A stretch of 64,000 nucleotides of DNA from Vitis vinifera (taxonomy: Eukaryota > Streptophyta > Magnoliopsida > Vitales > Vitaceae), in NCBI RefSeq assembly GCF_030704535.1, contig NC_081807.1, positions 4,877,001 to 4,941,000 on the forward strand, read 5' to 3'. Of this stretch, positions 5,382 through 34,394 are shown one piece after another. The position numbers were made by a program, and so were the translations under genes. The notes beneath the pieces were generated by a model. It saw only the letters and a list, made by a program, of their open reading frames with translations, had not been told where the DNA came from and did no database searches. Numbering within the stretch: position 1 is the first letter of the stretch; each line of letters begins with the position of its first letter.

Positions 5382-5552
5382 AGCGAGGGTTTCACAACAT
5401 AACTTCTATTTCAGCAGCATGGTTTGCGTTTCCGTTCATTTCCTACTTCAAATGTTCATAACGTTCCTCTCTATCCCTTTCAAGAAATTTTCTTGATTTT
5501 CTCGGCTTCTCTACTGCAAGAATTTGTCTGAATTTCCCTTCAGACTGGGAAA

Positions 5553-11620: not shown

Positions 11621-11639
11621 GTTCTGAATAAGAAATGTC

Positions 11640-12810: not shown

Positions 12811-12812
12811 AC

Positions 12813-12824
12813 TGGTATCAGAGC
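12813..12824 (+). other. Primer-binding site (initiator tRNA-Met type)
   Basis: TGGTATCAGAGC begins two bases after the 5' LTR. This is the usual plant copia primer site, complementary to the initiator tRNA-Met 3' end. Confidence 0.9.
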
Positions 12825-12849
12825 CTAGGGTTAGGTTTGAGTGGGAGCA

Positions 12850-15800
12850 ATGGCAGAGGAAGCAGGAAAGGCGTCTGGAATAGAAAAGTTTGATGGCACA
12901 TACTTTGCGTATTGGAGGATGCAGATTGAAGATTATCTCTATGGGAGGAAATTGCATATGCCTCTTTTGGGGACAAAACCTGAGAGTATGAAGGCTGAGG
13001 AATGGGCGCTTCTTAACAGACAGGTTCTAGGAGTTATTAGGTTAACTCTGTCTTAGGTTTGTTGCACACAATGTTGTAAAGGAGAAGACCACAGCAGATC
13101 TGATGAAAGCTTTGTCAGGCATGTATGAAAAGTCGTCCGCAAACAATAAGGTGCATCTGATGAAGAAATTATTCAATTTGAAAATGGTAGAGAATGCATC
13201 AGTAGCACAACATCTGAATGAATTTAATACAATCACAAATCAATTGTCGTCTGTAGAAATTGATTTTGATGATAAGATTCGTGTTTTGATCGTCTTAACT
13301 TCTTTGCTAAACAGTTAGGAGACAATGAGGATGGTAGTAAGCAATTCTACCGGAAAGGAAAAGCTTAAGTACAATGATATATGAGATTTAATTCTGGCTG
13401 AGGAGATTCGCCGAAAAGATGCAGGCGAAACCTCAGGATCTGATTCTGCCCTAAACCTAGAGACAAGAGGCAGAGGTAATGATAGAAATTCAAACCGAGG
13501 TAGATCAAAATCCAAAAATTCTAATCGGAACAGAAGCAAATATAGATCAGGCCAACAAGTACAATGTTGGAACTGTGGGAAAACAGGTCACTTTAGAAGA
13601 CAATGCAAAAGTCCTAAGAAGAAGAATGAAGATGATTCTGCTAATACTGTAACATAAGAGGTACATGGTGCATTACTTCTTGCAGTAGACAGTCCACTTG
13701 ATGATTGGGTTTTGGATTCAGGAGCTTCGTTTCATACCACTCCACATCGAGAAATCATACAGAATTATGTTGCAGGTGATTTTGGTAAGGTGTATTTAGC
13801 TTATGGTTCAGCCTTGGATGTTGTGGGTCTGGGAGACTTCCGGATATTGTTGCCCAATGGGTCTGTTTGGTTATTGGAGGAGGTTCGACATATTCCTGAC
13901 TTGAGGAGGAATCTGATTTCTGTTGGACAACTTGATGATGAAGGACATGCAATACTATTTGTTGGTGGTACTTGGAAGGTTACAAAGGGAGCTAGGGTAT
14001 TAGCTCGTGAAAAGAAGACTAATACTCTGTAAATGACCTCATGTCCAAGAGACACAATTGCAGTTGCTGATGCAAGTACTAATACAAGCTTATGGCACCG
14101 CAAACTTTGTCACATGAGTGAGAAAGAGATGAAGATGTTGTTGTCAAAAGGAAAACTACTAGAATTGAAGTCCATTGATTTTGACATGTGTGAAAGTTTC
14201 ATCTTAGGAAAGTAAAAAAAAAGTAAGCTTCTTGAAAACTAGTAGGACACCAAAGGCTGAAAAATTAGAACTAATACACACTAATTTGTGGGAGCCTTCT
14301 CTGGTTGCATCCCTTGGAGGTTCAAGGTACAACATCACTTTTATTGATGACTCAAGCAAAAATGTATGGGTTTATTTTCTGAAAAATAAATCTGATGTAT
14401 TTGAAACTTTTAAGATGTAGAAGGTCATGGTTGAGACAGAAACAGGTTTGAAAGTAGAATGTTTGAGGTCAGATAATGGAGGAGAGTATATAGATGGAGG
14501 GTTCAGTGAGTATTGTGTTGCACAAGGAATTAGGATGGAGAAGACCATTCCTGGGACACCACAGCAGAATGGTGTGGCTAAACGCATGAACAGAACTCTC
14601 AATGAGCGTGCTAGAAGTATGAGGTTGCATGCTGGACTACCAAAAACTTTTTGGGCTAATGTTGTTAGCACTGCAGCTTACCTGATAAACCGAGGACCAT
14701 CAGTTCCCATGGAGTTTAGACTTCCTAAGGAGGTTTGGAGCGGTAAAGAGGTAAAGTTTTCACATTTAAAAGTTTTTGGTTGTGTTTCTTATGTTCATAT
14801 TGATTCTAATGCTCGTAGTAAACTTGATGCAAAGTCTAAAATATGTTTTTTCATTGGCTATGGTAATGAGAAATTTGGCTATAGGTTTTGGGATGAACAA
14901 AACAGGAAAATCATCACATGTAGAATTGTGATATTTAATGAACAGGTTATGTACAAGGACAAGTCAACTGTAGTGTCAGATGTTACAGAGATAGATCAAA
15001 AGAAATCTGAGTTTGTCAACTTAGATGAATTGACTGAAAGTACTGTCAAAAAATGGGGTGAAGAAGATAAGGAGAATGTAAATTCACAGGTAAATCTGAG
15101 TACACCTGTAGCTGAAGTTCGCAGATTTTCCAGGAACATTAGACCTCCACAGCGTTATTCACCTGTTTTAAATTATTTCCTGTTGACTGATGGTGGTGAG
15201 CCAGAGTGTTATGATGAAGCCTTGCAAGATGAGAATTCGAGCAAGTGGGAGTTATCCATGAAGGATGAGATGGATTCCTTGTTGGGGAATCAGACATGGG
15301 AACTGATTGAATTGCCAGTAGGAAAGAAGGCTTTGCACAAAAAGTGGGTATACATAATAAAGAATGAGCATGATGGTAGCAAACGTTAGAAGGCCAGATT
15401 AGTTGTTAAAGGGTTCCAGCAGAAGGAGGGCATTGACTACACAGAGATATTTTCTCCAGTTGTAAAGATGTCAACAATCAGACTTGTACTGGGAATGGTG
15501 GCTGCAGAAAACTTACATCTTCAGCAGTTAGATGTGAAGACAACATTCCTTCATGGTGACTTTGAGGAAGACCTTTACATGATTCAGCCAGAAGGGTTCA
15601 TTGTTCAGGGACAAGAGAATCTAGTCTGCAAACTGAGAAAGACCTTGTATGGCCTTAAACAAGCTCCTAGACAGTGGTACAAGAAGTTTGACAGTTTTAT
15701 GCATAGAATTGGGTTCAAGAGATGTGAAGCTGGTCACTATTGCTATATTAAGTCTTTTGACAATTCTTACATCATATTACTATTGTATGTGGATGATATG

Positions 15801-16748
15801 CTTATTGTAGGGTCTGGCATTGAGAAGATTAATAATCTGAAGAAGCAATTGTCCAAACAGTTTGCAATGAAGGATTTGGGAGCTGCAAAGCAAATCCTTG
15901 GTATGAGAATTATTAGAGACAAGGCTAATGGTACATTGAAGCTTTCACAGTCAAAGTATGTGAAGAAAGTTCTCAGCATATTCAATATGAATGAAGTTAA
16001 ACCAGTTAGCACACCATTGGGTAGTCATTTCAAACTAAGCAAAGAGCAGTCAACAAATACAGAAGAAGAAAGGGACCATATGAGCAAGGTGCCCTATGCC
16101 TCAGCTATTGGTAGCTTGATGTATGCTATGATGTGTACAAGGCCAAACATTGCACATGTAGTGGGAGTTGTGAGCAAATTCATAAGTAGGCCTGGAAAGC
16201 AGCATTGGGAGGCAGTCAATTGGATTCTAAGATATCTGAAGGGTTCATTAGATACATGTCTTTGCTTCACAGGTGCAAGTTTGAAACTGCATGATTATGT
16301 AGATGCTTATTTTTCTAGTGATATTGATAGTAGAAAGAGTACTACTAGGTTTGTTTTTACTCTAGGTGGTACAACTATATCATGGGCTTTAAATCTACAG
16401 AAGATTGTTACTTTGTCTACTATAGAAGCTGAGTATGTTACAGCAACTGAAGTTGGAAAGGAGATGATTTGGCTACATGGTTTCTTAGATGAATTAGGTA
16501 AGAAGCAGGAGATCGGCATTCTACACAGTGACAGTCAGAGTGCAATTTTTCTTCCCAAAAATTCGGCTTTTCATTCAAAGTCGAAGTATATACAAACAAA
16601 ATACCACTTTATCTATTACCTTGTTGAAGATAATCTGGTAACACTTGAGAAGATTTGTGGATCTAAGAACCCGGCAGACATGTTGACTAAGGGTGTCACT
16701 ATTGAGAAGTTGAAGTTGTGCGCAGCTTCAATTGGTCTTCTAGCTTGA
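12850..16748 (+). pseudogene. Copia gag-pol polyprotein, broken
   Basis: Gag begins MAEEAGKASGIEKFDG at 12850. The CCHC zinc knuckle (CWNCGKTGHFRRQC) is near 13565-13606. Protease DSGAS is near 13714. The GAG-pre-integrase segment (LWHRKLCHMS) is near 14088 and the integrase core (SDNGGEY) near 14470. The RT YVDDM box is at 15786-15800, and RNase H runs through about 16620 to the stop at 16748. Breaks include a stop and frameshift at about 13056-13070, in-frame stops near 13316, 13382, 13656, 14030, 14418 and 15387, and a break near 14215. Longest open parts are 14427-15389 and 15468-16748. Not expressed as an intact polyprotein. Confidence 0.92.
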
Positions 16749-16828
16749 GGACAGGAGGATGAGTTGTAGGGATGAGGGATTGTTTCTTGGAGGATAGCGG
16801 TTTGATGTTGGTGATTGAACTAGTCTCC

Positions 16829-16840
16829 AAGTGGGAGATT
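16829..16840 (+). other. Polypurine tract
   Basis: AAGTGGGAGATT immediately precedes the 3' LTR start TGTTGGGC. This is the standard plus-strand primer position of LTR elements. Confidence 0.85.
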
Positions 16841-17234
16841 TGTTGGGCTTTGTGGAGCCTAGTTTTGTTTGATCTGGTTTAACGACCCGACTTGAATAAT
16901 ATTGCGTGGTTTTTTATTTTTTAATGTGCAATATTCGTGCAATATTCTTTTGGGCCCGTTTTGCCCATTGTGGAACCGCCTTTTGTAATTAAGGTTTTTT
17001 CATGTGGTGTGGTTGTCGTGTTTTATATAGAGAGAAAATATTGTAGCCGCAAGTTGTACTTTGTATTCTTCCCTGATAATAGTGATATCCCTACAACTCC
17101 ATCAGCGTAGGCAAATTGTCAAACCACATAAATACTGTCTTGTGCGTGTGATTGTTTTTCTTTTGCATGTGTTTTCTTTATTTTTATTTTTTTTTTGTTT
17201 CTCACAGGCTGGGAATTTGGATTAATTCCCTGTA
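16841..17234 (+). repeat. Copia 3' LTR, first LTR of the composite array
   Basis: Starts TGTTGGGC and ends TGTA (TGCA in most other copies). Carries a TATA-like box ('gttttatatagagag') and a long pyrimidine tract ending 'tctcacag'. It keeps the ancestral start, unlike internal array LTRs, which start TATCGGGC. Confidence 0.9.
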
Positions 17235-17663
17235 GGTCACTATCACATCCCGCCAGCTGCGTGGTACCATCCAAAAAACCCATCACCCAGGTTTGCAACT
17301 CCTCTTCCCCATCCAAGCCACCACTACTATACTCCATATCCAGGTTTTCACAATATGGAGCACCAGTCAGTCCTGCGTCCACCATTTCAGCCAGGAGATC
17401 ACCTCACCTCACAATATCCTATCCGTTTAAACAGTCAATGTCAGGCAACCCCATGGTGCATCATGTCTCCTGCACCTCGACTGGAAACCTACTATGCACC
17501 ACCACCATTACTTGATAGCATTAATCCTATCCAATCACAAACTGTGAGCATTAGGTAAACTCACAACCATACATCAGTACAAACCTCAGAAACCATAGAC
17601 AATAACTAAAAGATAGAACGACTTAGAAAGGATCAACTCAACCAAATCCTAGAGACAGTCCCA
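17235..17663 (+). pseudogene. Array exon segment 1
   Basis: Open reading frame from the LTR border (17235) to the stop at 17558, about 107 codons, rich in Pro, His, Tyr and Gln. It contains HNMEHQSVLRPPFQPGDHL and ends QTVSIR. The rest is 3' UTR with 'gaacgacttagaaaggatca'. It is homologous to the KH-family C-terminal exon region and 3' UTR (compare 46985-47060). No upstream KH exons are attached. Confidence 0.75.
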
Positions 17664-18057
17664 TATCGAGCTTTGTGGAGCCTAGTTTTGTTTGATCTAG
17701 TTTGACGACCCGACTTGAATAATATTGCATGGTTTTTTTTTTAATGTGCAATATTCTTGCAATATTTTTTTGGGCTTGTTTTGCCCATTGTGGAACCGCA
17801 TTTTGTAATTAGGGTTTTTTAGTGTGGTGTGGTTCCCGTGTTTTATATAGAGAGAAAATATTGTAGCAGCAAGTTGTACTATGTATTCTTCCCTGATAAT
17901 AGTAATATCCCTACAACTCCATGGACGTAGAAAAATTGTCGAACCACGTAAATATTGTCTTGTGTGTGTGATTGTTTTTCTTTCGCATGTGTTTTCTCCA
18001 TTTTTTTTTTTTTTTTTTTGTTTCTCATAGGCTGGGAATTTGGATTAATTCCCTGCA
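17664..18057 (+). repeat. Array LTR 3
   Basis: Starts 'tatcgagctttg' and ends CTGCA. 394 bp, with TATA-like box and T-rich tract. Chimeric: the start resembles the array's last LTR and the end resembles 16841-17234. Confidence 0.88.
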
Positions 18058-18486
18058 GGTCACTATCACATCCCGCCAGCTGCGTGGTACCATCCAGAAA
18101 ACCCATCACCCAGGCTTGCAACTCCTCTTCCCCATCCAAGCCACCACTACTATACTACATATCAAGGCTTTCACAATATGGAGCACCAGTCAGTCTTGCG
18201 TCCAAAATTTCAACCAAGAGATCACCTCACCTCATAATATCCTATCCGTTTAAACAGTCAATATCAGGCAACCCCATGGTGCATCATGTCTCCTGCACCC
18301 CGACTAGAAACCTACTATGCACCACCACCATTACTTGATAGCATTAATCTTATCCAATCACAAACTGTGAGCATCAGGTAGACTCACAACCATACATCAG
18401 TACAAGCCTCAGAAACCACACACAATAACTAAAAGATAGAACGACTTAGAAAGGATCAGCTCAACCAATTCCTAGAGACAGTCCCA
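18058..18486 (+). pseudogene. Array exon segment 2 (premature stop)
   Basis: Same segment as 17235-17663. In-frame TAA replaces the usual CAA codon near 18234 (cctcataatat). Flanked by LTRs on both sides. Confidence 0.75.
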
Positions 18487-18877
18487 TATCGGGCTTTGTG
18501 GAGCCTAGTTTTGTTTGATCTGGTTTGACGACCCGACTTGAATAATATTGCGTGGTTTTTTTTTTAATGTGCAATATTCGTGCAATATTTTTTTAAGCTT
18601 GTTTTGCCTATTGTGGAACCGCCTTTTGTAATTAAGGTTTTTTAGTGTGGTGTGGTTCCCGTGTTTTATATAAAGAGAAAATATTGTAGCCGCAAGTTGT
18701 ACTCTGTATTCTTCCCTGATAATAGTGATATCCCTACAATTCCATGGGCGTAGGCAAATTGTCGAACCACGTTTATATGCTCTTGTGCGTGTGATTGTTT
18801 TTCTTTGGCATGTGTTTTCTTTATTTTTATTTTTATTTTGTTTCTTACAGGTTAGGAATTTGGATTAATTCCCTACA
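18487..18877 (+). repeat. Array LTR 4
   Basis: 391 bp. Shares 'gtttatatgctcttgtgc' and the CTACA end with LTR 5 only, marking the most recent duplication. Confidence 0.88.
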
Positions 18878-19306
18878 GGTCACTATCACATCCCGCTAGC
18901 TGCGAGGTACCATCCAGAAAACCCATCACCTAGGCTTGCAACTCCTCTTCCCCATCCAAGCCACCACTACTATACTCCGTATCCAGGCTTTCACAATATG
19001 GAGCACCAGTCAGTCTTGCGTCCACCATTTCAGCCAGGAGATCACCTCACCTCACAATATCCTATCCGTTTAAACAGTCAATATCAGGTAACCCCATGGT
19101 GCATCATGTCTCCTGCACCCCGACTGGAAACCTACTATGCACCACCACCATTACTTGATAGCATTAATCCTATCCAATCACAAACTGTGAGCATCAGGTA
19201 GACTCACAACCATACATCAGTACAAGCCTCAGAAACCACACACAATAACTAAAAGATAGAACGACTTAGAAAGGATCAGCTCAACCAAATCCTAGAGACA
19301 GTCCCA
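18878..19306 (+). pseudogene. Array exon segment 3 (open frame)
   Basis: Open for about 107 codons, ending at 19201 in QTVSIR. Nearly identical to segment 4. Confidence 0.75.
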
Positions 19307-19697
19307 TATCGGGCTTTGTGGAGCCTAGTTTTGTTTGATCTGGTTTGACGACCCGACTTGAATAATATTGCGTGGTTTTTTTTTTAATGTGCAATATTCG
19401 TGCAATATTTTTTTAAGCTTGTTTTGCCCATTGTGGAACCGCCTTTTGTAATTAAGGTTTTTTAGTGTGGTGTGGTTCCCGTGTTTTATATAAAGAGAAA
19501 ATATTATAGCCGTAAGTTGTACTCTGTATTCTTCCCTGATAATAGTGATATCCCTACAATTCCATGGGCGTAGGCAAATTGTCGAACCACGTTTATATGC
19601 TCTTGTGCGTGTGATTGTTTTTCTTTGGCATGTGTTTTCTTTATTTTTATTTTTATTTTGTTTCTTACAGGTTAGGAATTTGGATTAATTCCCTACA
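19307..19697 (+). repeat. Array LTR 5
   Basis: 391 bp, nearly identical to LTR 4, including the unusual 'taagcttgttttgcc' and the CTACA end. Confidence 0.88.
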
Positions 19698-20126
19698 GGT
19701 CACTATCACATCCCGCCAGCTGCGAGGTACCATCCAGAAAACCCATCACCCAGGCTTGCAACTCCTCTTCCCCATCTAAGCCACCACTACTATACTCCGT
19801 ATCCAGGCTTTCACAATATGGAGCACCAGTCAGTCTTGCATCCACCATTTCAGCCAGGAGATCACCTCACCTCACAATATCCTATCCGTTTAAATAGTCA
19901 ATATCAGGCAACCCCATGGTGCATCATGTCTCCTGCACCTCGACTGGAAACCTACTATGCACCACCACCATTACTTGATAGCATTAATCCTATCCAATTA
20001 CAAATTGTGAGCATCAGGTAGACTCACAACCATACATTAGTACAAGCCTCAGAAACCATAGACAATAACTAAAAGATAGAACGACTTAGAAAGGATCAGC
20101 TCAACCAAATCCTAGAGACAGTCCCA
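19698..20126 (+). pseudogene. Array exon segment 4 (open frame)
   Basis: Open for about 107 codons, ending at 20021; a few substitutions relative to segment 3. Confidence 0.75.
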
Positions 20127-20528
20127 TATCGGGCTTTGTGGAGCCTAGTTTTGTTTGATCTGGTTTGATGACCCGACTCGAATAATATTGCGTGGTTTTT
20201 TTTTTAATGTGCAATATTCGTGCAATATTTTTTTGGCTTGTTTTGCCCATTATGGAACCACCTTTTGTAATTAAGGTTTTTTAGTGTGGTGTGGTTTCCG
20301 TGTTTTATATAGAGAGAAAATATTGTAGCCGCAAGTTGTACTCTATGTTCTTTCCTGATAATAGTGATATCCCTACAATTCCATGGGCGTAGACAAATTG
20401 TCGAACCACGTAAATACTATCTTGTACGTGTAATTGTTTTTCTTTTGCATGTGTTTTCTCTATTTTTTTTTTTTTTTTTTTTTTTTTTTTGTTTCTCAGA
20501 GGCTGGGAATTTGGATTAATTCCCTGCA
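20127..20528 (+). repeat. Array LTR 6
   Basis: 402 bp; the extra length is a longer poly-T tract before 'gtttctcagagg'. Ends CTGCA. Confidence 0.88.
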
Positions 20529-20957
20529 GGTCACTATCACATCCCGCCAACTGCTTGGTACCATCCAGAAAACCCATCACCCAGGCTTGCAACTCCTCTT
20601 CCCCATCCAAGCCACCACTACTATACTCTGTATCCAGGCTTTCACAATATGGAGCACCAGTCAGTCTTGCGTCCACCATTTCAACCAGGAGATCACCTCA
20701 CCTCACAATATCCTATCCGTTTAAACAGTCAATATCAGGTAACCCCATGGTGCATCATGTCTCCTGCACCCCGACTGGAAACCTACTATGCACCACCACC
20801 ATTACTTGATAGCATTAATCCTATCCAATCACAAACTGTGAGCATCAGGTAGACTCACAACCATACATCAGTACAAGCCTCAAAAACCACAGACAATAAC
20901 TAAAAGATAGAACGACTTAGAAAGGATCAACTCAACCAAATCCTAGAGACAATCCCA
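20529..20957 (+). pseudogene. Array exon segment 5 (open frame)
   Basis: Open for about 107 codons, ending at 20852. Last segment before the MULE insertion. Confidence 0.75.
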
Positions 20958-21055
20958 TATCGGGCTTTGTGGAGCCTAGTTTTGTTTGATCTGGTTTGAC
21001 GACCCGACTTGAATAATATTGCGTGGTTTTTTTTTTTAATGTGCAATATTTGTGC

Positions 21056-21064
21056 AATATTTTT
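21056..21064. other. MULE target-site duplication, left
   Basis: AATATTTTT, identical to 29995-30003. Nine bases is the size typical of Mutator-superfamily insertions. Confidence 0.9.
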
Positions 21065-21496
21065 GGGAAAAATGCTCATACACCCCTTAAACTTTTAACT
21101 ACCGGTCAAAAGACCCCCTTAACTTTTTTACTGGCCAATTTACTCCTTAAACTATTCATAACTGCCAAATTAATACTTCAGTTAGTCACACGTTAAAACA
21201 CTAACGCAATAAACACATGCCACTCACGTGGCTTTTAAATACAAATTGAAAAACACCAAACATCCAAAACCCAACGGAAGAGAAGAGAACCAGTCCAGGT
21301 CCAGCAGAGAGAGAGAGAGAGACTGCACGTCGTTCATAGCCACTGCCAAGTTTCTCTTCGCCGTCTTGCCGCCCTTGTCCTAGCAGCTCCTTGGTGGTTC
21401 CGCCGCACTTTTCAATCTGGGTATGTCTTTTTTTTTTTTTCTTCTTACGTCTTGCTATTTAAATTTTCTAAGAACTTTTTTTTTTTTTTTTAATCT

Positions 21497-21518
21497 TGTA
21501 GACCCCCTCTTTGGCTTT

Positions 21519-21553
<35 letters not shown>

Positions 21554-24500
21554 TTTATATTTAGCCTTCCTGCCACTTGGGAAGCGCCTGGAGGATGACA
21601 TTTGAAGGGGGGACCGGGCTTCTTGGAGGAGCAGCTGCATGGAGCACGTGACGAGGCAGGTGGCCCTCTCCATGGTGGTGGTTGGAGCTTCTGAGGTTGC
21701 TGAGCAGGGAATAGTGGAGTAGCTGATGGCTTGCGGGTGAAGATAGGAAAAAAGAGAAGAAGGAAAAAAAGAAAACGGGTAGCAGTGGGGAGGATTCTTT
21801 GAAGAAAAAAAAAAGCCTGGAGAAAAGAAGAGAGGAAACGCAAGAGAAGGAGAAGGGAGACCGCTCAGGTTAGATTACTTTTGTACCCTAGGTTCTCCAT
21901 TTTTTTTATTATTCATTTTGTTCTATTTTCAGCCATATCTCACTCCTTCTTGATATTTAGATGTTTCCGGATTATTTAACGCGTTAAATTTGCTCCTCAT
22001 TTCATGAATTGCTTGGTCCATGTTTTGGTTCCCATGCGAATTATATGATAGCCATGCATGTTGCCACATTTTCTCTCTCTTTCTCTTCCTCTTTCCCTTC
22101 CTCTTCCTTTTCCTCCTCCTCTCCATGCATCTTCTCTCCGGTGGCGCGAAGCATGCAGCGTTTCCAGGTGGAGGGGCAAGTTGAAGGAGATGATGCCTTG
22201 GGCTTGCCTTGATTTGGGCTTAAGTTAAAACACCCAGCCCAAGTTGATGTTAAAATGGTGCCTTGGGCTTGCCTTGATTTGGGCTTAAGTTAAAACACCC
22301 AGCCCAGGTTGATGTTAAGAGGATGCCTTGGGTTTGCCTTGATTTGGGCTTGCCTTGATTTGGGCTTAAGTTAAAACACCCAGCCCAAGTTGATGTTAAA
22401 ATGGTGCCTTGGGCTTGCCTTGATTTGGGCTTAAGTTAAAACACCCAGCCCAGGTTGATGTTAAGAGGATGCCTTGGGTTTGCCTTGATTTGGGCTTAAG
22501 TTGGAGCCCAGGCCCAAACTTTTATAGTGATGGTGCCTTGGGCTTAAGTTAGAGCCCAGACCTAAGCTCTTGGTGACGGGTTTGGGCTTGAGTTGGAGCC
22601 CAACCCAAGCATGTTGATGAAAGGCCCCATGCCCCCTATGCTAGCCACCCTCATTGGCCCATGCCCACATCCATTTAGCCCATTAGGTTGCCCAAATCCA
22701 AATAATCCTCTTAAAAACCTCTATTATCCATAATTAATTAATTCAATCATTCCCTCTTATTTGTTATCTTATTCTATTTCTACCAATTTATTTAATTCAT
22801 CTTAAAGACAATTAAAAGACAAATTATTATTGTTAATTATATTTTTTTATCTTGAAATTTATACTATTCAATTTCACTAGTTTAAATATTAGGATTGTTA
22901 ATTATTATTATTACTTCGTACGCATCTATTTATCATCTTTTAAAATCCCACTCATTAAAGTTAAATTCTAATCCTTCAAAACCCCATATCTTAATTTAAT
23001 TTTTCAATAATTAGTTTAGATCTCATTTTCATCAATTAAGGTTATTATCTCATATTCATCTAGTTATTTAAAATCTAATCCTTCAAAAAATTCATATTTT
23101 AATTTAATTTTTCAATCCTAAAAAAAAATCCTACAATTCATTTAAATTTCATTTTCATCAATTAGAATCATCATCCCATATTTATTTAAAGTCCAATCTT
23201 TCAAAAATCTCAATTTAACTTTCAACCTTAGAAATTCTATTATTCGCCCAAACGTTATTTTCGTTAACTAGAATTCTTATCCTCTATCTTTTTATTCATT
23301 TAAGGTCCAACTCTTCAAAAATTCAACGTCCTGATTTAATTTTTAATCCTAAAAATTCCACCACTCACTTTCTATTCGTTTAAAATTTTGTTTCCATTAA
23401 GTAGCATTATTATTCCATATTATCTATTTAATCTAATCGTTAAAGTTCAATTCATCAGAACCCAACTTCCAAATCTAATTTCTAACCTCAAAAGCTTCGT
23501 CGTCCATATATCGCCGTTTAATGATTATTCTCGTTATTAACGCTATCTCATCCACTCGCTTATTCAGTTATTCATATATCAAAGATCTCATCTCTAAATA
23601 AATTCTTAAGTTTTCAATCTCTAAATTCACATCTTCAAATCTCTAAAATTCCATCTTTCGCAATTATTTACCTAAACTTTGTTACTTCACCATCGTTATT
23701 ATTCCATCCTTTTACTTATTCGCTCATCCACTCATCCCCTCATTTAAAATCCCAAACTCTCAAATCATTTTCAAAGTTTCCAACCTCGTTCAAATTTAAT
23801 TTTTAAAAATTCTCATTCTCGCATTTAATGCCTGAAAGTCCGATCTTCAAATAAACTCTAAAATCCCAATTTTCTTTAAATAACTTTCGAGACTCCAATT
23901 TTTCAAATGAATTTCAAAAATCCAATTTTCTCTCAAATAGCTTAATTCCATTCTGGTTTTCAAACAATCTTCTGCTCCTCTTATTTTTAATAAGCATGAA
24001 CGAATTTTTCGTAATTCCAAACAATGGAATTTATGAGATGAATTCATGCAAAAATAGAAATGGGCTTTGGTGGGGGCCCAACATATGAGATTTTATGATT
24101 GATGGATTGTTTGGTTGATTCGGTTGCCATACATGATTTATTCTGCTCTATGATATGCATGTGACTATTCTTTAGTTGTGCACTAACCTCATTTCTTGAT
24201 AGCGCTTTATGGATCACTGCCCAGGTACGCATCCACACCCGCTCGGGTCATTTTCTATATGCATGTTTAGATTCTCACATGTGCATGATCACTCTGAGTA
24301 TTTATTGTTTCCCTCATCAATTGCCATGATTGCTTCATTTTATTAGTAGAGACCCGACTCTAGGGACTTAGAGGGGTGCTACGGTTTTTACCGTACCTTC
24401 CTGATAAGTAACCTGACCCCCGAACCCGATCCGGTTTTTCACAGACCACCTTTTCCAAAGTAAGGAGTCACACTTAGGGTTTTTCTTTCTTATTTTGTTT

Positions 24501-24635
24501 ACCCCTTTTAAAAATAAAACAAAAATAAGTGGCGACTCCAAGTCATTTCTTTTTAATAAATAAAAATCATTTTCAAATAAAAATCGAGCTCGCCATCGAG
24601 TGGGGAACGCATCGAGCCGAAATGCGGGGTCCACA
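21497..24635 (+). mobile_element. Large solo LTR (3139 bp) nested in the MULE
   Basis: Starts TGTAGACCCC and ends GGGGTCCACA, giving near-perfect inverted ends with TG...CA. It is flanked by the 5-bp duplication AATCT at 21492-21496 and 24636-24640. No primer site, gag or pol is seen, so it is a solo LTR, probably of a Ty3/gypsy element judging by size and by the 'gtggcgactccaagtc' segment near its 3' end. Recombination between two LTRs is the usual origin. Confidence 0.85.
22190..22600 (+). repeat. Tandem repeat of about 66 bp in the solo LTR
   Basis: Roughly six units built on 'gccttgggcttgccttgatt' followed by 'cacccagcccaagttgatgt'. Units alternate between 'ttaaaatg' and 'ttaagagg' endings, suggesting a higher-order duplication of two units. 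Later units are truncated or diverged. Confidence 0.8.
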
Positions 24636-25008
24636 AATCTCCATGTGCGAATTTTTATTATAGAAATTCTTGTTTTGGTTTAATTTCTGGGTTGGGTCTC
24701 TATGAAATTCTTGGTTTTTTACTTTCTCCATGTGCCTTTCACCAACTGTTGCATTTGAGTATGTCATAGAGCTGTTTGATTAAATGCCTAAGAGAGATAT
24801 GGCTACTGCTAAGGGGTTTGGTTGCTTGGTTATCCAATTTTCCAAATATGCTGGCCTTCCAGGTTTCCCTTGCAACCCATTTGCAACAAAAACATATCAA
24901 ACACGAATTATTATTTCTTCCCATTTGCACTTCAATTATTATTTCTTAATTTTCTCCTTCTTCATGTAGAAATCAACCCTAAATATTTCCCTTATTTGTT
25001 TCAGCAAA

Positions 25009-25200
25009 TCAGATAATGTAATTTACAAGCTCAAAGAGATAGGAAAGATTGGGGAGAAAGATATATTGCTGATCTGCGATTACTTCAGTAAGCTTGATCG
25101 CAACAACTTAGGGAAGATAACACTACCAGATCTTTCGGAACCTTGTGACTGCAAGAATTATGAAATCTGTTTCTATTCTTTAGATGGAAGAAATGTATAG
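25009..25200 (+). pseudogene. Captured TPK (two-pore K+ channel)-like C-terminal exon fragment
   Basis: Frame 25009-25200 reads SDNVIYKLKEIGKIGEKD followed, about 14 residues later, by KLDRNNLGKITLPDL, then a short diverged tail to TAG at 25200. YKLKE(M)GKI then an EF-hand loop D-x-N-x-x-G-x-I-x-x-x-D is the layout of the cytosolic C-terminus of plant TPK/KCO channels. A 'gtttcag' acceptor-like site precedes it. No pore or membrane segments are present in the element. It is read as a host exon captured by the MULE; family assignment is from recalled motif layout, not a search. Confidence 0.6.
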
Positions 25201-25843
25201 TTACATTTTTTTTCTTCTTCCATTGATACTTGTAAAGGTTTCAATTCATATAGGAGCAATGAAAAATAGAAGCCAATGAGATATGTCCCCCTCCTGTTAT
25301 AGGTTCTCTTACAGCCATTAAATTGAGAGGCTGCTATGGAGGGTTTGAGTTGTGTAATGTAGATTTGACACTGTAATAATTCAAGTAGTCAACAAGGAAA
25401 GTAAACAATCTTGGGATGATCTTACTTCTTCTCTTTATTTTGATTCAAGTTGTATGAGTGATTTGGTTGATGCGTATTTCTTCTCTTTATGCAATAACCA
25501 CCAAAAATGAATGTGTCCCAATCTGCCATGAATTGAACTTTATGCAATAACTCTAAGAAAAAAAATCAATAATTACATTTTTCTAGCAATATTGAAAGAC
25601 AAAAGTATACTGGCTCCATCAGTATTCTTAAAAGGATCTCAATATGCCATGAATTGAAATATCAAATAAGTGTTCACAAATGGTATATTGTTTGCCAAAA
25701 AAATAACACTCAATGAATCAATAATTACACTTTCCAAGCAATATTGAAAAACAAAAGTATACTGGCTCCATCAATATTTTTAGAAGGCTGTGTATCACTA
25801 AACAAATTATTGAACTAAAAAATTATTTATCTTCTTGCTGCCA

Positions 25844-28332
25844 CTAAACCTTAGTCTTTCCCTTATCCTTCTTGCTTCCACTAGTGTTGTCCTTTGTACG
25901 ACTTTGACTTGACTGTTGAGTACCTATATTTGATTGCTGAGTACCCTATAAAAAGCCAAAAAAGTTGAAAAAGTTTAACAAAGTAGTACTTGAAATTTGG
26001 ATGAAAAGTTCAACAAAGTAGTACTTGAAATTTACCAATAATTTTTTACTCCATTTAGCTCCAGATGTAGATGATTGTTCTAATTGCCCTTTCTTTTTCT
26101 TTTTATAAGCCTTCTTGTTGGGGTTATCAGGAGCTTTACAAGTTCTTTGATTATGGCCCCACTGTAAACAATTCCCACATTTCATGGCAGTTCCTTTCTT
26201 GCTCACCCTAAATGCATTTATAGGTTCTCCTGCCTCCCTCTTTCTTACCTTCTTATGCTTGCCTACTTTCTTTGTAAATTTTGGGGGCTTGATTAGGTCA
26301 TAGGGTGTTTTTAGCCATTGTTCATGGCTTGGAAGTGTGCTTATCATCCATTGGTAACAACTTAGGAATGTCTCCTTAATGTAAGCAATGTCTACATAAG
26401 TCTCAAGTTGCTCTCCATGCTCAATTATTGCAGCAGCAGCATGAAAACATGGGATTCCACTCAATCCCCATCTCCCACAACCACAAGTCCTCTCATTCAA
26501 GTCCACCACATATCTTCCACCATAAATATACTCCACCTCATATTTGGACTCTCCATTCCAACGAGAAATGCAATGTCCAACCTCGCTTTTTATCCTCTCA
26601 AGCTTCTTATAGATTCTTGGACAAACCCTCCCTTCATACCTTCTCATATGATCTCTTTTGGTTTGCAACCTTTGCATCAACATCACTCTTATGATCTCCA
26701 TCATTGTCAACACTGGTTTATCCCTAGCCTCCAAAATCCAAGCATTGAAAGACTCTGCTATATTGTTTACTAGAGTGTCACTCTTGCTTCTTGGATTAAA
26801 AGCATGTCTGTTCCATGTTCTCACATCTAACTTCACAAGCCACTCATATGCCTTCACATCTAGCTTCTTCAACTCATCCATGTGGAAGTCAAAAGAATTC
26901 TTTGTTGTTGCCCTAGCAGCACTCCACATTGCATCTTTGAGTACCTTCCCAGGAAAATCCTTCTTGAAATTTGCATGTAAATGCCTAACACAAAATCTGT
27001 GCTCTGCATTAGGCATCAAATCTTTAAAGGTCTCTACTAATCCCTGCCATAAAAAATACGCAAATATACATTAGTTATTCATATTCAGGTTATAGATCAT
27101 GATATTTTTAAAAAATAAATAAATAATTCACATGCACATTAATTGTTTCTTGTCTTCTGTCAGTCTGAGATAAAGACCCATCCATTCTCATCCACATGTC
27201 CAATGTCATCCAACAAGCACTGTAGAAACCAGGTCCAAGAGCTTTTATTCTCAATTTCAACAATAACAAAAGCGATTGGGAAGATATTATCATTCCCATC
27301 CTTTCCAACAGCAACCAGTAACTGTCCACCTGTTGTCCCCTTCAAATGACAACCATCTATCCCAATAAGTGGCCTACAACCTGCTAAAAATCCCCTTTTG
27401 CAAGCATCAAGACAAATATACATTCTCTCAAACACATCATTCGTAGTTTGTATCTTCACTATGCTACCCACATTCCACTTCCTAATAGCAGCTGCATAGT
27501 CCCAAAGTCTCTCATACTGCTTCTCCTCAGCACCATGTATCATCTTGAATGCCATTCTCTTAGCCTTATAACATTGGTCCAAAGTCACATCAACTTCATG
27601 GTCCCTAAACACTGCACCTTTCAATGCATTTGTTGTCCAAGTATGATCATCTCTAAAGAATGGCAAATATTTATTGGCTAGCCACCTTGAAGAAATCTTA
27701 CTATTCTTATGATCCTTGCCACACGTATGAATGCTTTTAAAACTTTTGATTTGAAAGGCATCTCCCATTTGTGTTTGGGATGCATGTATCTTCCAACCAC
27801 ATTTTTTTTTACATACAGCTGTCACTCTCCACTTATCATTGTGCTTATACTCAAAATCATGTTTTTCTTTAATACACCACTCCTTTAGTGCCTCCTTGAA
27901 GATGACATGTGATGCAAATTTTTTATCCTTCACTAGCTGTACATTCTCCATGCCAATGCGCTGGTTAAACTCAGGGAACCTAGGCCTTGAATTCCCTTCA
28001 TCATCAGATGACCCTTCTGCACTCCTTAACTCATCACTATCCCCATGATCTTAATCTCCTTCACCATTCCAAACTCCCTCAAGCTGCTTGCCTCCAATTG
28101 CTCTATTGATTCCATCATCCTCCATACCAAAATCTTCAATTATATCATCATCAGATTCAGAAAAATCACTCAAATTGTAATCTTCGTCATCCTCGTCATC
28201 CTCCACATCAATTGGAACATTAACAATTTCAGATAGGCCATCAGCCTCAATAAAATCATATTGGGATTGAGGGGCTTGTACATTTGGCATAGAAGGTGAA
28301 TTTCCAGGGAGTGACAGTGGACTTTCATCCAT
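25844..28332 (-). pseudogene. MULE transposase (MURA-like), disrupted
   Basis: Exons on the minus strand: 28332-27154, 27043-26036 and 25945-25844, about 762 codons if intact. The N-terminus is acidic (DDEDDEDYNLSDFSESDDD), followed by a MuDR DNA-binding-like region (CKKKCGWKIHASQ), a DDE transposase core (LIGIDGCHLKG, WVFISD, HRFCVRHLHANFK), a SWIM zinc finger (CGCGRWGLSGIPCFH) and a CCHC knuckle (CGNCLQWGHNQRTC). Damage: TAA at 28050-28048, and TGA at 27162-27160 replacing the Arg expected after FISD. The first intron also lacks a GT donor at its expected position, while its acceptor 'ggcag' is normal. Intron 2 (26035-25946) has GT-AG borders. Probably inactive, though the inverted repeats remain intact enough to be moved in trans. 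Confidence 0.9.
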
Positions 28333-29267
28333 GGCTACAATACAAAATTAACAAGAACATTAATAATAGAGCTGGAGAAAACATAATTAAAAAAAAAAAA
28401 AAACAATATAGAGAATAGTGAGAAAAAAAAATATAACAATTTGCTCATGCACATGTGCATGATTGCTGCTAGTTCAATTCACATAATTCAAAATATTACA
28501 ACATGCTAGCTTAGTCAGTAGACCATATGGCTGGAATCATTACACCGAGACCCAGTATCTTTAACACTAACCAAAAGCCATATCTTTAACAGTAAACTAT
28601 ATATTACATATTAATATTACTTAGCTGCACCCAGCATCTTTAGGGGGAAAAAAAAAAAAAAAAAAAAAAAGATGCACCTAGCAATAGTAGAAAAATGTAA
28701 AAATTAATAATATTCTTTTGAATGGATCCATATTCCAAAGTATTTAGAAACCTTAAATCAGTTGAGTTACAAAGACATTCGGCGATCAAATTCCATCTAT
28801 CCCAACTAATGAATTATCATAAAAAATAAATTTATTTGGATCAAACTAGGTAAAATCTTTAGTGACTTAATGCAAATTTTGAAACTATGTTTATGATTTT
28901 TCAGTATCAACTGCTTCGTCATTGCAAATGTTGCATAAGATGGTTGTTAAGACATTAAGACCGTAAGGCTTACTTACAAAGTGACCTTGCCTGAACATAT
29001 GGAAAAACTACATTATCTTCTCATAATAAAAAAGAAAATTGCTACACTAATTCTATAGTGTAATTAGACATGGCAAGTTTGGACCAAACTGGAACACACT
29101 AAAAATACCAAGGGATTCATAAACAGGATTTTGGATGTTCATGATCAATCCTTATGTAGCACTGCATTATTTCTTGGATGGATACAAGGCATATTTGCAA
29201 GTGACAAAATTAATGAAATTTCTCTAATTGAAGATTTAGTTATTGGCTTCTGGATCATTACAGAACC
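28333..29267. other. MULE internal non-coding region
   Basis: Upstream region of the transposase gene. Includes a 23-base poly-A run (28648-28670) and AT-rich sequence. No additional gene or captured exon recognised. Confidence 0.6.
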
Positions 29268-29710
29268 AATTGTGTTTGATATTTTTTTGTAGCAAATGGG
29301 TTGCAAGGGAAACTTGGAAGGCCAGCATATTTGGAAAATTGGATAACCAAGCAACCAAGCCCCCTTAGCAATAGCCATATCTCTCTCAGGTATTTAATCA
29401 AACAACTCTATGACATCCTCAAATGCAACAGTTGGTGAAAGGCACATGGAGAAAGTAAAAAACCAAGAATTTCATAGAGACCCAACCTAGAAATTAAACC
29501 AAAACAAGAATTTCTACAATAAAAATTCGCACATGGAGATTAAAAAAAAATAAAAGTTCTTAGAAGATTTAAATAGCAAGACGTAAGAAGAAAAAAAAAA
29601 AAAAAAAAAGACATACCCAGATGAACAGTGCGGCGGAACCACCAAGGCGCCGCCGGGACAAGGGCGGCGAGACAGCGGAGAGAAGCTTGGCAGTGGCTAT
29701 GAACGGCGTG

Positions 29711-29755
<45 letters not shown>

Positions 29756-29994
29756 GGACTTGGACTGGTTCTCTTCTCTTCCGTTGGGTTTTGGATGTTT
29801 GGGTTTTTTTTAGTTTGTATTTAAAAGCCACGTGAGTGGCATGTGTTTATTCCGTTAGTATTTTAACGTGTGACTAACTGAAGTATTAATTTGGCAGTTG
29901 TGAATAGTTTAAGGAGTAAATTGGTCAATAAAAAAGTTAAGGGGGTCTTTTGACCAGTAGTTAAAAGTTTAAGGGGTGTATGGGCATTTTTCCC
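29268..29994 (-). repeat. MULE right terminal inverted repeat
   Basis: About 727 bp, reverse complement of the left repeat. Includes a (TC)n tract at 29714-29752 that is much longer than its left counterpart. Ends GCATTTTTCCC. Confidence 0.88.
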
Positions 29995-30003
29995 AATATT
30001 TTT
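29995..30003. other. MULE target-site duplication, right
   Basis: AATATTTTT, identical to 21056-21064; array LTR 7 resumes directly after it. Confidence 0.9.
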
Positions 30004-30288
30004 TTTGGCTTGTTTTGCCCATTCTGGAACCGCCTTTTGTAATTAAGGTTTTTTAGTGTGGTATGGTTCCCGTGTTTTATATAGAGAGAAAATATTGTAG
30101 CCGCAAGTTGTACTATGTATTCTTCCCTGATAATAGTGATATCCCTACAATTCCATGGGCGTAGGCAAATTGTCGAACCACGTAAATACTGTCTTGTGCG
30201 TGTGATTGTTTTTTTTTTGCATGTGTTTTCTCTATTTATTTATTTTTTTTGTTTCGCACAGGCTAGGAATTTGGATTAATTCCCTGCA

Positions 30289-30717
30289 GGTCACTATCAC
30301 ATCCCGCCAGCTGCGTGGTACCATCCAGAAAACCCATCACCCAGGCTTGCAACTCCTCTTCCCCATCCAAGCCACCACTACTATACTCCGTATCCAGGCT
30401 TTCACAATATGGAGCACCAGTCAGTCTTGCGTCCACCATTTCAGCCAAGAGATCACCTCACCTCACAATATCCTATCCGTTTAAATAGTCAATGTCAGGC
30501 ATCCCCATGGTGCATCATGTCTCCTGCACCCCGACTAGAAACCTACTGTGCACCACCACCATTACTTGATAGCATTAATCTTATCCAATCACAAACTGTG
30601 AGCATCAGGTAGACTCACAACCATACATCAATACAAGCCTCAGAAACCATAGACAATAACTAAAAGATAGAACGACTTAGAAACGATCAGTTAAACCAAA
30701 TCCTAGAGACAGTCCCA
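30289..30717 (+). pseudogene. Array exon segment 6 (open frame)
   Basis: Open for about 107 codons, ending at 30612 in QTVSIR. First segment right of the MULE. Confidence 0.75.
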
Positions 30718-31105
30718 TATCGGGCTTTGTGGAGCCTAGTTTTGTTTGATCTGGTTTGACGGCACGACTCGAATAATATTGCGTGGTTTTTTTTAATGTG
30801 CAATATTCGTGCAATATTTTTTTTGGCTTGTTTTGCCCATTGTGGAACCGCCTTTTGTAATTAAGGTTTTTTAGTGTGGTGTGGTTCCCGTGTTTTATAT
30901 AGAGAGAAAATATTGTAGCTACAAGTTGTACTCTGTATTCTTCCCTGATAATAGTGATATCCCTACAATTCCATTGGCGTAGGCAATTTGTCGAACCACG
31001 TAAATACTGTCTTGTGCGTGTAATTGTTTTTCTTTGGCATGTGTTTTCTCTATTTTTTTTTTTTTTTGTTTCGCACAGGCTAGGAATTTGGATTAATTCC
31101 CTGCA
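30718..31105 (+). repeat. Array LTR 8
   Basis: 388 bp; shares 'gtttcgcacaggctagg' with LTR 7. Ends CTGCA. Confidence 0.88.
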
Positions 31106-31534
31106 GGTCACTATCTCATCCCGCCAGCTGCGTGGTACCATCCAGAAAACCCATCACCCAGGCTTGCAACTCCTCTTCCCCATCCAAGCCACCACTACTA
31201 TACTCCGTATCCAGGCTTTCACAATATGGAGCACCAGTCAGTCTTGCGTCCACCATTTTAGCCAAGAGATCACCTCACCTCACAATATCCTATCCGTTTA
31301 AACAGTCAATATCAGGCAATCCCATGGTGCATAATATCTCCTGCACCCCGACTGGAAACCTACTATGCACCACCACCATTACTTGATAGCATTAATCCTA
31401 TCCAATCACAAACTGTGAGCATCAGGTAGACTCACAACCATACATCAGTACAAGCCTCAGAAACCACACACAATAACTAAAAGATAGAACGACTTAGAAA
31501 GGATCAGCTCAACCAAATCCTAGAGACAGTCCCA
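31106..31534 (+). pseudogene. Array exon segment 7 (premature stop)
   Basis: In-frame TAG (ccattttagcc near 31258) where other units read CAG. Otherwise as the other segments. Confidence 0.75.
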
Positions 31535-31929
31535 TATCGGGCTTTGTGGAGCCTAGTTTTGTTTGATCTGGTTTGACAACCCGACTCGAATAATATTGCG
31601 TGGTTTTTTTTTTTTAATGTGCAATATTCGTGCAATATTTTTTTGGGCTTGTTTTGCCCATTGTGGAACCGCCTTTTGTAATTAAGGTTTTTTAGTGTGG
31701 TGTGGTTCCCGTGTTTTATATAGAGAGAAAATATTGTAGCCGCAAGTTGTACTCTGTATTCTTCCCTGATAATAGTGATATCCCTACAATTCCATGGGCA
31801 TAAGCAAATTGTCGAACCATGTAAATACTGTCTTGTAGTGTAATTGTTTTTCTTTCGCATGTGTTTTCTCTATTTTTTTTTTTTTTTTTTTGTTTCTCAC
31901 AAGCTGGGAATTTGGATTAATTCCCTGCA
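31535..31929 (+). repeat. Array LTR 9
   Basis: 395 bp, ends CTGCA, same chimeric layout as LTRs 3-8. Confidence 0.88.
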
Positions 31930-32358
31930 GGTCACTATCACATCCCGCCAGCTGCGTGGTACCATCCAGAAAACCCATCACCTAGGCTTGCAACTCCTCT
32001 TTCCCATCCAAGCCACCACTACTATACTCCGTATCTAGGCTTTCACAATATGGAGCACCAGTCAATCTTGCGTCCACCATTTCAGCTAGGAGATCACCTC
32101 ACCTCACAATATCCTATTCGTTTAAACAATCAATATTAGGCAATCCCATGGTGCATCATATCTCCTGCACCCCGACTGGAAACCTACTATGCACCACCAC
32201 CATTACTTGATAGCATTAATCCTATCCAATCACAAACTGTGAGCATCAGGTAGACTCACAACCATACATCAGTACAAGCCTCAGAAACCACACACAATAA
32301 CTAAAAGATAGAACGACTTAGAAAGGATCAGCTCAACCAAATCCTAGAGACAGTCTCA
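31930..32358 (+). pseudogene. Array exon segment 8 (premature stop)
   Basis: In-frame TAG in 'caatattaggcaat' (near 32136). The segment ends in TCTCA, one base off the TCCCA of other units. Confidence 0.75.
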
Positions 32359-32739
32359 TATCGGGCTTTGTGGAGCCTAGTTTTGTTTGTTCTGGTTTGA
32401 CGACCCGATCCGAATAATATTGCGTGGTTTTTTTTAATGTGCAATATTCGTGGAATTTTTTTTGGGCCCGTTTGTCCCACTGTGGAATCGCCTTTTGTAA
32501 TTAGGGTTTTTTAGTGTGGTGTGGTTGTCGTGTTTTATATAGAAAGAAAATAAAGTAGCCGCAAGTTGTACTCTATATTCTTCCCTGATAATAGTGATAT
32601 CCCTTCAACTCCGTGGACCTAGGCAAATTGTCGAACCACGTAAATATTGTCTTATGCACGTGATTGTTTTTCTTTGGCGTGTGTTTTTTCTATTTTATTT
32701 TTTTTCTCACAGGTTGGGAATTCGGCTTAATTCCCTTCA
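32359..32739 (+). repeat. Array LTR 10, right boundary of the array
   Basis: 381 bp. Starts TATCGGGC like the internal LTRs but shares 'gggcccgttt', 'gtggttgtcgtg' and 'cggcttaattccc' with the 12460 and 16841 LTRs. Ends TTCA, followed by TCCCA (32740-32744), which repeats the end of each exon segment. This is consistent with a 5-bp target duplication of an LTR element in a KH 3' UTR. Confidence 0.88.
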
Positions 32740-33440
32740 TCCCATAGCATCAAGCTCCAACTGCAATTAACCATTCAACAGCAAGGAACTGTTGTCTTGC
32801 AAACTGAAGGTAGTGCTGGTTAACTACTATTTTTCCCTTTTTTTTTTTCTTCTTTTTGTTTATCTCCATTTTGTACAAAAATAGAAATAATCCTAGCATT
32901 AATGTTGGCTAATGAAGTAGGGTTTTATGAAAATTTTGTGGATAAGATCTTAGATAATGTAGGTGGAAGTGCAGGCTAGCTTCATCAGATAAGATTTGAT
33001 GGCCTTGTGTGTCACCATGCAGTCATCACTTAAGTATTTCTTCCTTTTTGTTGGATATATGGACAAATTCTTTTTATTTGCTCACACATGAATCATGAGT
33101 TCCCTTGGATAACAAGTTTATATCGATGATCATTTCTTTCTGATGATCTAAATTATTTATAAACATGTGCCTGAAAGCTAATCTAATATTAAAATTTATG
33201 AAAAATTTTACTATCTCAAATTTTAAACTTTTTAAGGTAATTGACAAGAAGACATGGGAATTCATACTATTTCCAATATAAAATTGGTAGTGTATAAAAT
33301 CAGTGAGTAGTGCAGTGGTGCATTTATAAGAATAATGGGTCAATCGAACTTGGATGCATGATACACCTCACTCAATGGTCAAGCTCCTTTTATGTATCAT
33401 TTTGGTTTCACCCGTTAAGGAAATTTGAATCCGGAGGTAC
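32740..33440 (+). other. KH-family 3' UTR and downstream flank after the array
   Basis: Continues the KH 3' UTR ('agcatcaagctccaactgca', 'ggaactgttgtcttgcaaac') and matches 47065-47700 throughout, up to a tRNA-like remnant. No coding sequence. Confidence 0.75.
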
Positions 33441-33530
33441 TTCATTACCTGTTCGTTTTCCGTGACCCTCCTATTAAAAATTTAGGAATTTTTAGTCAAA
33501 TATATTTAGTGGACAAGATTTACATGTTGT

Positions 33531-33597
33531 GGATTTGTGGCATAATGGTAGCGCTTTGGACTCTAACAGACATTGTTACTCGAACTCCTATAGAAAA
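33531..33597 (+). pseudogene. tRNA-Trp pseudogene
   Basis: 'ggatttgtggcataatggta' followed by 'gcgctttggactctaac' matches the 5' half of the tRNA-Trp at 47785-47856. The anticodon loop reads CTCTAAC rather than CTCCAGA, and the T arm and acceptor end are lost. It sits at the same position relative to the KH downstream block, so it is a decayed duplicate. Confidence 0.7.
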
Positions 33598-33628
33598 ATC
33601 GTCTATAGTGATAGTTTAAGATATTAAA

Positions 33629-33745
33629 AGTGTGTTTGACAGTAATTTTAGACAGTGTTTCTAATCTTTCTAACACTTAAAATTTTTTATCTTTAAAGTA
33701 TTATAAATATTAGAAACACTTCCTAAAATCACTACCAAACATACT
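33629..33745. mobile_element. Short MITE-like inverted repeat
   Basis: About 117 bp that folds on itself. 'agtgtgtttgacagtaattt' at the left pairs with the inverse of 'aaaatcactaccaaacatac' at the right, with 'gtgtttctaat' / 'attagaaacac' inside. Resembles hAT-type MITEs. No clear target duplication. Confidence 0.6.
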
Positions 33746-33749
33746 CTAA

Positions 33750-34272
33750 TGTTTTTACTTGAAATACTTTTAATGGAAGAGTTTTCTTTGGAAGATTTCC
33801 ATCTCATATGGGCTAGCTAAGCGAGATGAGTTTCTAATGCCTTCTATGATGCACAAATAATTCGACCTCACAATTTAAAAGGAAAAAGTGAAAATCTAAA
33901 AGTGTATGATTGGATCCTATTTTGGTGAAAAAAGTTACCTCTTCTAAATAATGTATTTGCTTTTATAGTTTTCTAGGGTGGTCTTTAATTTTATCTGGAT
34001 TTTAATAATATCAATTAATCTCAACACTTCTTGTAATTAGTAAAAGATAACTAATCTCACAAATATAAAAATAAAAATAAAAAATTATTGGTTGAATGAT
34101 AGAAAATAAATTCATTAGACCTAAAAAGGAATTATAAATAAAATATAATGTATGTTTAATGGCTAATATATGAAGTGAATGGCTTTCTTGATTCATGAAA
34201 TTTATTGAGTAGATTTATGCATTAACCACTTTTGATTGAATCATAAGCATGATTTTGTTTATGGTATTGTGT

Positions 34273-34324
<52 letters not shown>

Positions 34325-34362
34325 AATTGAATAACATATATTTTATATAGATTATACTGCTA

Positions 34363-34394
<32 letters not shown>

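Follow-up and report, generated by a model that had tools for sequence, protein, structure and literature searches.

Organization of the array

Analysis of a 64,000-bp stretch of the Vitis vinifera genome (NC_081807.1, positions 4,877,001 to 4,941,000; C3:4877001-4941000 in the coordinates used here), hereafter the window, revealed a tandem array at window 16841-32739 in which a 429-bp host segment occurs eight times, in alternation with nine copia long terminal repeats (LTRs). The segment was assigned to the end of the last exon of a KH-family gene, with its 3' untranslated region (UTR). Self-comparison and a table of the junctions gave about 820 bp per unit; the spacing was 817 to 831 bp, apart from the unit interrupted by a Mutator-like element (MULE). 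The original prediction for this DNA, eight last-exon copies alternating with nine copia LTRs at a period of about 820 bp, was thereby confirmed. The eight exon copies of this main array (M1 to M8) share 94.4 to 97.7% pairwise identity and its seven internal LTRs share 91.6 to 99.2%, values far beyond chance. Three further features were found: the body of the copia element that owns LTR 1, the MULE in the gap of the array, and a second array upstream of the window. The coordinates are given in Table 1.

Junctions and hybrid LTRs

The host segment begins with GGTCACTATC and ends with GTCCCA. The LTR-to-exon junction was present in all 11 exon copies of the two arrays. The exon-to-LTR junction, CCCATATCG(G/A), was exact in 10 of them; the copy at 32355, the last in the main array, is off by one base, with TCTCA in place of the TCCCA that precedes the LTR at the ends of exon copies.

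The right edge of both arrays reads CTTCA followed by TCCCATAGCATC. An LTR-free copy of the same site was detected in a paralogue within the window. There, positions 46991-47070 read GGTCCCACAGCATC, with the last 73 bp of the exon (92%) on the left and the 3' flank (86%) on the right. The TCCCA at the right edges and the single TCCCA in the LTR-free site indicate that this site, termed B, is an insertion with the 5-bp target duplication of copia elements in a native 3' UTR. A single target duplication around the whole array was not found: TCCCA appears repeatedly, next to the exon-to-LTR junctions as well as on the far right, and the left boundary is formed by a truncated copia element in the main array and by a microhomology join in the upstream one.

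At the other insertion site, termed A, a copia 3' LTR ending in CTGTA is joined to GGTCACTATC. LTR 1 alone starts with TGTTGGG after a purine tract, which identifies it as the 3' LTR of the element at A; the 5' LTR of this element ends in CTGCA. Its open pieces, searched separately, showed in order a copia-type gag, a zinc knuckle, Pol_BBD, a retroviral SH3-like domain and RVT_2, with stops between them (Retrotran_gag_2 at 13046-13315; SH3_retrovirus, with rve_3 below its cut-off, at 14421-15386; RVT_2 at 15390-16745). The copia-type gag and RVT_2, with the integrase region ahead of the reverse transcriptase, place the element in the copia superfamily. To the left of its 5' LTR, positions 11583-12307 resemble the exon 1/intron 1 region of the KH gene (5255-6008), and the left flank of A, which was looked for, is missing from the main locus, as are the first bases of the 5' LTR.

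The left edge of B and the right edge of A are combined in each of the seven internal LTRs of the main array, and likewise in both interior LTRs of the upstream array. Such unmatched flanks are the outcome predicted by recombination between LTRs. The internal LTRs of the main array end in CTGCA (5 of 7) or CTACA (2 of 7). The last LTRs of the two arrays (ML9 and U_L4) have the end states TTCGG and CTTCA in common, which none of the nine interior LTRs carries. Twenty same-family LTR stretches from elsewhere were recounted by eye. Their starts were TGTT in 11, TGTC in 6 and TATC in 1, so that TATC at B is one base away from a normal start. Their ends were CTTCA in 12 and CTACA in 7 but never CTGCA, which thus marks the site-A element and most internal LTRs. 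A switch from B-like to A-like sequence was sought inside the LTRs; diagnostic sites are few, and only the two ends are clear. No primer binding site (PBS) or polypurine tract (PPT) borders the exon copies. Two PBS strings, scanned over 100 kb, occurred once in the copia element (12806-12825) and once in the upstream locus.

Source of the exon segment

The neighbouring open KH-family gene is most similar to a protein of V. piasezkii (97%) and to one of V. vinifera (58%). The array piece itself, represented by the M3 frame, matched no Pfam family, KH_1 included. Comparison of the full array piece with the last exons of relatives gave DNA scores of 82 to 119, with maxima of 47 to 54 among shuffled sequences (four comparisons, 200 block shuffles each). 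The coding part alone scored 54 to 59 against shuffle maxima of 43 to 48 and exceeded the shuffles in all four comparisons. The UTR part alone exceeded every shuffle in three comparisons; in the fourth, 4 of the 200 shuffles were not exceeded. At the protein level, the coding part matched four outside members of the family with E values from 7e-4 (P0004, the best) to 0.22. The designation as a KH-family last exon in the original prediction is therefore upheld by the shared 3' UTR and flank, by the DNA scores and by P0004; the protein match to the neighbouring gene did not bear it out, as detailed below.

A further predicted protein, P0006 (204 amino acids), contains the same exon at 72 to 74% identity and continues upstream. 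It was considered as proof of an LTR-free site A and rejected, as the alignments begin at least 20 bases inside the unit.

Copies and pieces of KH-family genes cluster between window positions -14000 and 47800 in forward and inverted orientation (e.g., 2776-3512 versus 6007-5326), and local duplications are frequent. Within this cluster, 6435-7884 is the copy whose exons were read as open.

A second array and the age of the amplification

The second array consists of three exon copies and four LTRs in the order LTR-exon-LTR-exon-LTR-exon-LTR and is located at C3:4869252-4872051 (window -7748 to -4949). The stretch from -7650 to -3216, which includes this array and its right flank, aligns to 29994-34473 at 90%. 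A 300-kb section of C3 that includes the window and its surroundings contained no further full exon copy. A search of the genome (495.6 Mb, 21 contigs) with the whole unit revealed matches on other contigs that cover the LTR part only, with no exon-bearing copy among the 40 of 465 candidates that were scored. A dispersed LTR-exon chimera, which the original prediction had named as contrary evidence, was not seen among them. Together with the lack of a PBS beside the exon copies, this supports amplification of an exon piece through recombination between LTRs.

The 11 exon copies differ pairwise by 2.3 to 9.5%. Divergence was 4.05% within the main array, 7.9% between the arrays and 8.1% within the upstream array. 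The main copies grouped together with ultrafast bootstrap values of 97 (exons) and 100 (whole units). A stop after VSI(R) is common to all eight main copies and occurs in one of the three upstream copies (U2). These data suggest that an ancestral array already existed when the locus was duplicated and that a single unit gave rise to the re-expanded main array.

Decay of the exon copies

Of the 106 sites compared per codon position in the 11 exon copies, 26 were variable at position 1, 25 at position 2 and 16 at position 3, with no sign of coding constraint. Four of the copies (M2, M7, M8 and U2) have a stop before the common end. A coding function of the exon copies was rejected for want of codon-position constraint.

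Private transitions were biased in the array. The ratio of GC>AT to AT>GC was 27:2 in the main exons, 25:3 in the upstream exons and 26:5 in six LTRs (2, 3 and 5 to 8; LTR 4 was dropped as a near-twin of LTR 3, and LTRs 1 and 9 were dropped as ends). In the controls it was 28:20 (right flank), 17:14 and 18:16 (two KH paralogue segments). The bias in the main exons differed from that in the flank (Fisher's exact test, P = 0.0014) and from that in both KH segments together (P = 0.0001), base composition being uncorrected. A looser counting rule gave 28:2 for the main exons, 31:7 for the upstream exons and 46:13 for all 14 LTRs, the latter without a CHG excess.

CHG sites were hit more often than CHH sites in the main exons (15/336 versus 10/1160), which points to methylation of the kind found in transposable elements. 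Two of the three controls behaved alike, however (right flank, 9/117 versus 16/579; KH tails, 5/99 versus 10/525; 1.6-kb segment, 1/96 versus 16/1401), so that only the transition bias clearly sets the array apart from its surroundings. The exon copies decay like the LTRs, in the manner of transposon DNA that was presumably silenced.

A model for the origin of the array

The observations are best accounted for by two insertions of one copia family in a KH-family gene, amplification by recombination between LTRs, duplication of the locus, re-expansion and decay. We assign this reading a probability of roughly 0.8. A KH-family gene in a tandem gene cluster would have received two independent insertions with the same orientation: A would have struck in or at the last exon, and B the 3' UTR some 430 bp away. 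Recombination between the LTRs of A and B, whether between sister chromatids, between homologues or by copying from a broken end, would have doubled the intervening piece. The new unit would have consisted of the exon piece and a hybrid LTR with the left edge of B and the right edge of A, and repeated exchange between LTRs could have produced an array of several units. The whole locus would then have been duplicated, with three old units retained in the upstream copy and one unit re-expanded to eight in the window copy. Later, the array would have decayed like silenced transposon DNA, and the MULE would have landed in one LTR.

Several observations weigh against this model. LTRs of a single family and of like orientation do flank unique host DNA, B with its duplication and LTR-free site and A as the 3' LTR of the copia element, but only the right border of site A is visible. 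The left copy of the site-A target duplication was found in neither locus, the 5-bp duplication being seen at B and not at A. No LTR-free copy of site A was found, and P0006, in which the similarity begins inside the unit, does not cover it. The copia piece in the upstream locus has a 5' LTR that ends in CTTCA rather than CTGCA. The left edge of the upstream array reads AGGCATAT joined to CGGGC, versus AGGCATATTGC in the KH paralogue at window position 1. It is a microhomology join (CATAT) to the KH paralogue and not an LTR crossover, which indicates that other repair also acted. Comparison of the coding part with the open neighbouring KH gene at the protein level was not significant (BLASTP, E = 0.15). 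Finally, distance within the array predicted similarity only when the end LTRs were included (LTRs 1 to 9, r = 0.41, P = 0.013; LTRs 2 to 8, r = 0.28, P = 0.13; exons, r = 0.24, P = 0.14).

Alternative explanations

The tempo of amplification allows a variant of the model. A single recombination between LTR A and LTR B may have excised a circle of exon and LTR, which was then copied back by rolling-circle or break-induced replication, several units at once. We regard this as possible but unlikely. The main exons carry 41 singleton changes versus 16 shared ones (41/57, 72%, versus 44% expected for a steady genealogy; P = 2e-5). Singletons in the internal LTRs amount to 42 of 64, versus 48% expected. 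The exon tree is star-like, with near-zero internal branches, which leaves room for a rapid burst. The junctions fit a burst equally well but do not require one, and a star could also result from a quick run of unequal crossovers or from recurrent C>T change. Moreover, LTRs 3 and 4 differ at 3 places, compared with 15 and 12 for the adjoining exons on the two sides, which indicates a later exchange confined to the LTR. Growth in one or two bursts, through an ~820-bp circle that joined one hybrid LTR to one exon piece, instead of slow unequal crossing-over is a tentative proposal that we consider rather doubtful; if true, the array is an LTR-born satellite of a host exon.

With respect to the model of stepwise LTR recombination, the original prediction had assumed an exon between two same-orientation LTRs and repeated unequal crossing-over. 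This mechanism is largely supported, by the hybrid junctions, the duplication at B and the LTR-free site. Two qualifications concern age and tempo: amplification took place long ago, and the main array appears to have regrown in a burst and not in steady steps.

A working locus, in which LTR-driven exon transcripts yield a short protein or small RNAs acting on KH relatives, is very improbable. Every exon copy follows an LTR of matching orientation, with a TATATA stretch noted by eye, and P0007, a predicted protein of 67 amino acids on a 1,251-bp ENA contig, is 93% identical to the exon reading frame. Against this, the codon positions are unconstrained, 4 of the 11 copies have early stops, decay resembles that of transposable elements, and the open neighbouring gene shares little DNA identity with the array that small RNAs could exploit.

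Even less probable is transduction, in which a retrotransposon captured the exon and integrated as a preformed LTR-exon-LTR tandem, although tandem insertion has been proposed for some tandem LTR elements (PMC11899658). The 3' end of the exon is native and is joined to the same 3' flank without an LTR at 46991-47757, no PBS or PPT borders the exon copies, and the genomic matches on other contigs carry only the LTR part (40 of 465 candidates scored). A transduced exon or mobile chimera was therefore rejected on the basis of the LTR-free site B and the absent PBS and PPT. Least probable of all is a repeat expanded by the assembler, given the divergence among the 11 exon copies, the restriction of the MULE and its 9-bp duplication to the sixth LTR, and the existence of a separate, diverged array.

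Relation to known tandem LTR structures

For tandem LTR retrotransposons of plants, recombination between LTRs is one proposed origin; the analysis of two rice loci favours a single insertion, and the choice between recombination and tandem insertion is left open (PMC11899658). These structures resemble the array in their alternating LTRs and spacers, shared internal LTRs and variable unit number. In contrast, their spacer is the interior of the element itself, with target duplications around the structure, whereas the spacer of the array is a native host exon between two insertions (PMC11899658). Recombination can be assigned to the array because the spacer is native host DNA at B and the edges of the internal LTRs derive from different insertions. 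At G000:C8:23402850-23403800 (L016), two LTR matches of the same family adjoin, perhaps another tandem LTR structure.

The Cassandra and Wukong arrays of terminal-repeat retrotransposons in miniature (TRIMs), also from plants, likewise consist of short LTR-spacer units, and unequal crossing-over has been proposed to explain them at least in part (PMC7215508, PMC4528315). Their spacer is the interior of a mobile TRIM, with PBS and PPT; the spacer studied here has neither and showed no dispersed copy among the candidates listed above. The human RNU2 array is a tandem host gene with one LTR per 6.1-kb unit, and the LTR is suspected in its origin or upkeep (PMC3795722). It consists of working small nuclear RNA genes under concerted evolution, unlike the dead, diverging exon pieces described here. 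Nonmatching LTR flanks are described as the pattern left by ectopic LTR crossovers in a study of maize P1-wr (PMC2686159). According to this work and to a study of yeast (PMC2518615), LTRs at separate sites can cross over or serve for break-induced copying, with duplication and mismatched LTR flanks as the result; the same process is proposed for the array. The yeast segment spans 115 kb; that of the array spans 430 bp and is repeated many times.

No host-exon LTR array appeared among the titles and opening lines of abstracts listed in searches of open-access full-text literature, which does not prove its absence in print. The host exon as spacer is the new part; the recombination process itself is already known, and the array is an old fossil that illustrates how the ends of mobile elements can convert host DNA into tandem repeats. 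It indicates that a host segment as short as about 430 bp between LTRs can become a satellite-like array, and it provides a case of host exon pieces that now decay like transposon DNA. The number of units is expected to be a countable polymorphism among grape genomes.

Other features of the locus

Table 1. Positions of the array components and associated features in the window.
Feature	Position	Strand	Remarks
Neighbouring open KH-family gene, exons 2-5 (our reading)	6435-7884	+	KH_1, E 5.4e-10
5' LTR of site-A copia	~12460-12810	+	5'-truncated, lacking about the first 33 bases
Decayed copia internal region	12811-16840	+	PBS-like TGGTATCAGAGCC after LTR; purine tract GTGGGAGATT before 3' LTR
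LTR 1 (3' LTR of site-A copia)	16841-17234	+	start TGTTGGG, unlike all other LTRs in both arrays
Exon copy M1 (end of KH-family last exon and 3' UTR)	17235-17663	+	
LTR 2	17664-18057	+	hybrid junctions, CCCA to TATC and CTGCA to GGTCA
Exon copy M2	18058-18486	+	
LTR 3	18487-18877	+	99.2% identity with LTR 4
Exon copy M3	18878-19306	+	
LTR 4	19307-19697	+	
Exon copy M4	19698-20126	+	
LTR 5	20127-20528	+	
Exon copy M5	20529-20957	+	
LTR 6, left part	20958-21064	+	
MULE, 8,930 bp, inside LTR 6	21065-29994	-	9-bp duplication AATATTTTT at 21056-21064 and 29995-30003
LTR 6, right part	29995-30288	+	first 9 bases are the MULE target duplication
Exon copy M6	30289-30717	+	
LTR 7	30718-31105	+	
Exon copy M7	31106-31534	+	
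LTR 8	31535-31929	+	
Exon copy M8	31930-32358	+	end TCTCA, one base from the duplication TCCCA
LTR 9	32359-32739	+	right end of site-B LTR, ending CTTCA
Right copy of target duplication TCCCA (32740-32744) and native 3' flank of KH gene	32740-33482	+	
LTR-free copy of site B	46991-47757	+	exon 3' end directly joins 3' flank; single TCCCA at 47059-47063

The element inside LTR 6 was classified as a MULE on the basis of its transposase, its long inverted ends (430 to 460 bp, 87.9% alike) and its 9-bp duplication. Two open reading frames were detected on its minus strand, at 27160-27951 (MULE transposase and MuDR DNA-binding domains) and 25946-27019 (SWIM). As both are transposase related, the element may once have been autonomous. 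A tandem repeat of 65/81/146 bp is located within it at 22190-22502. Outside the array, a 319-bp tandem repeat in 2.2 copies occupies window positions 37306-38007.

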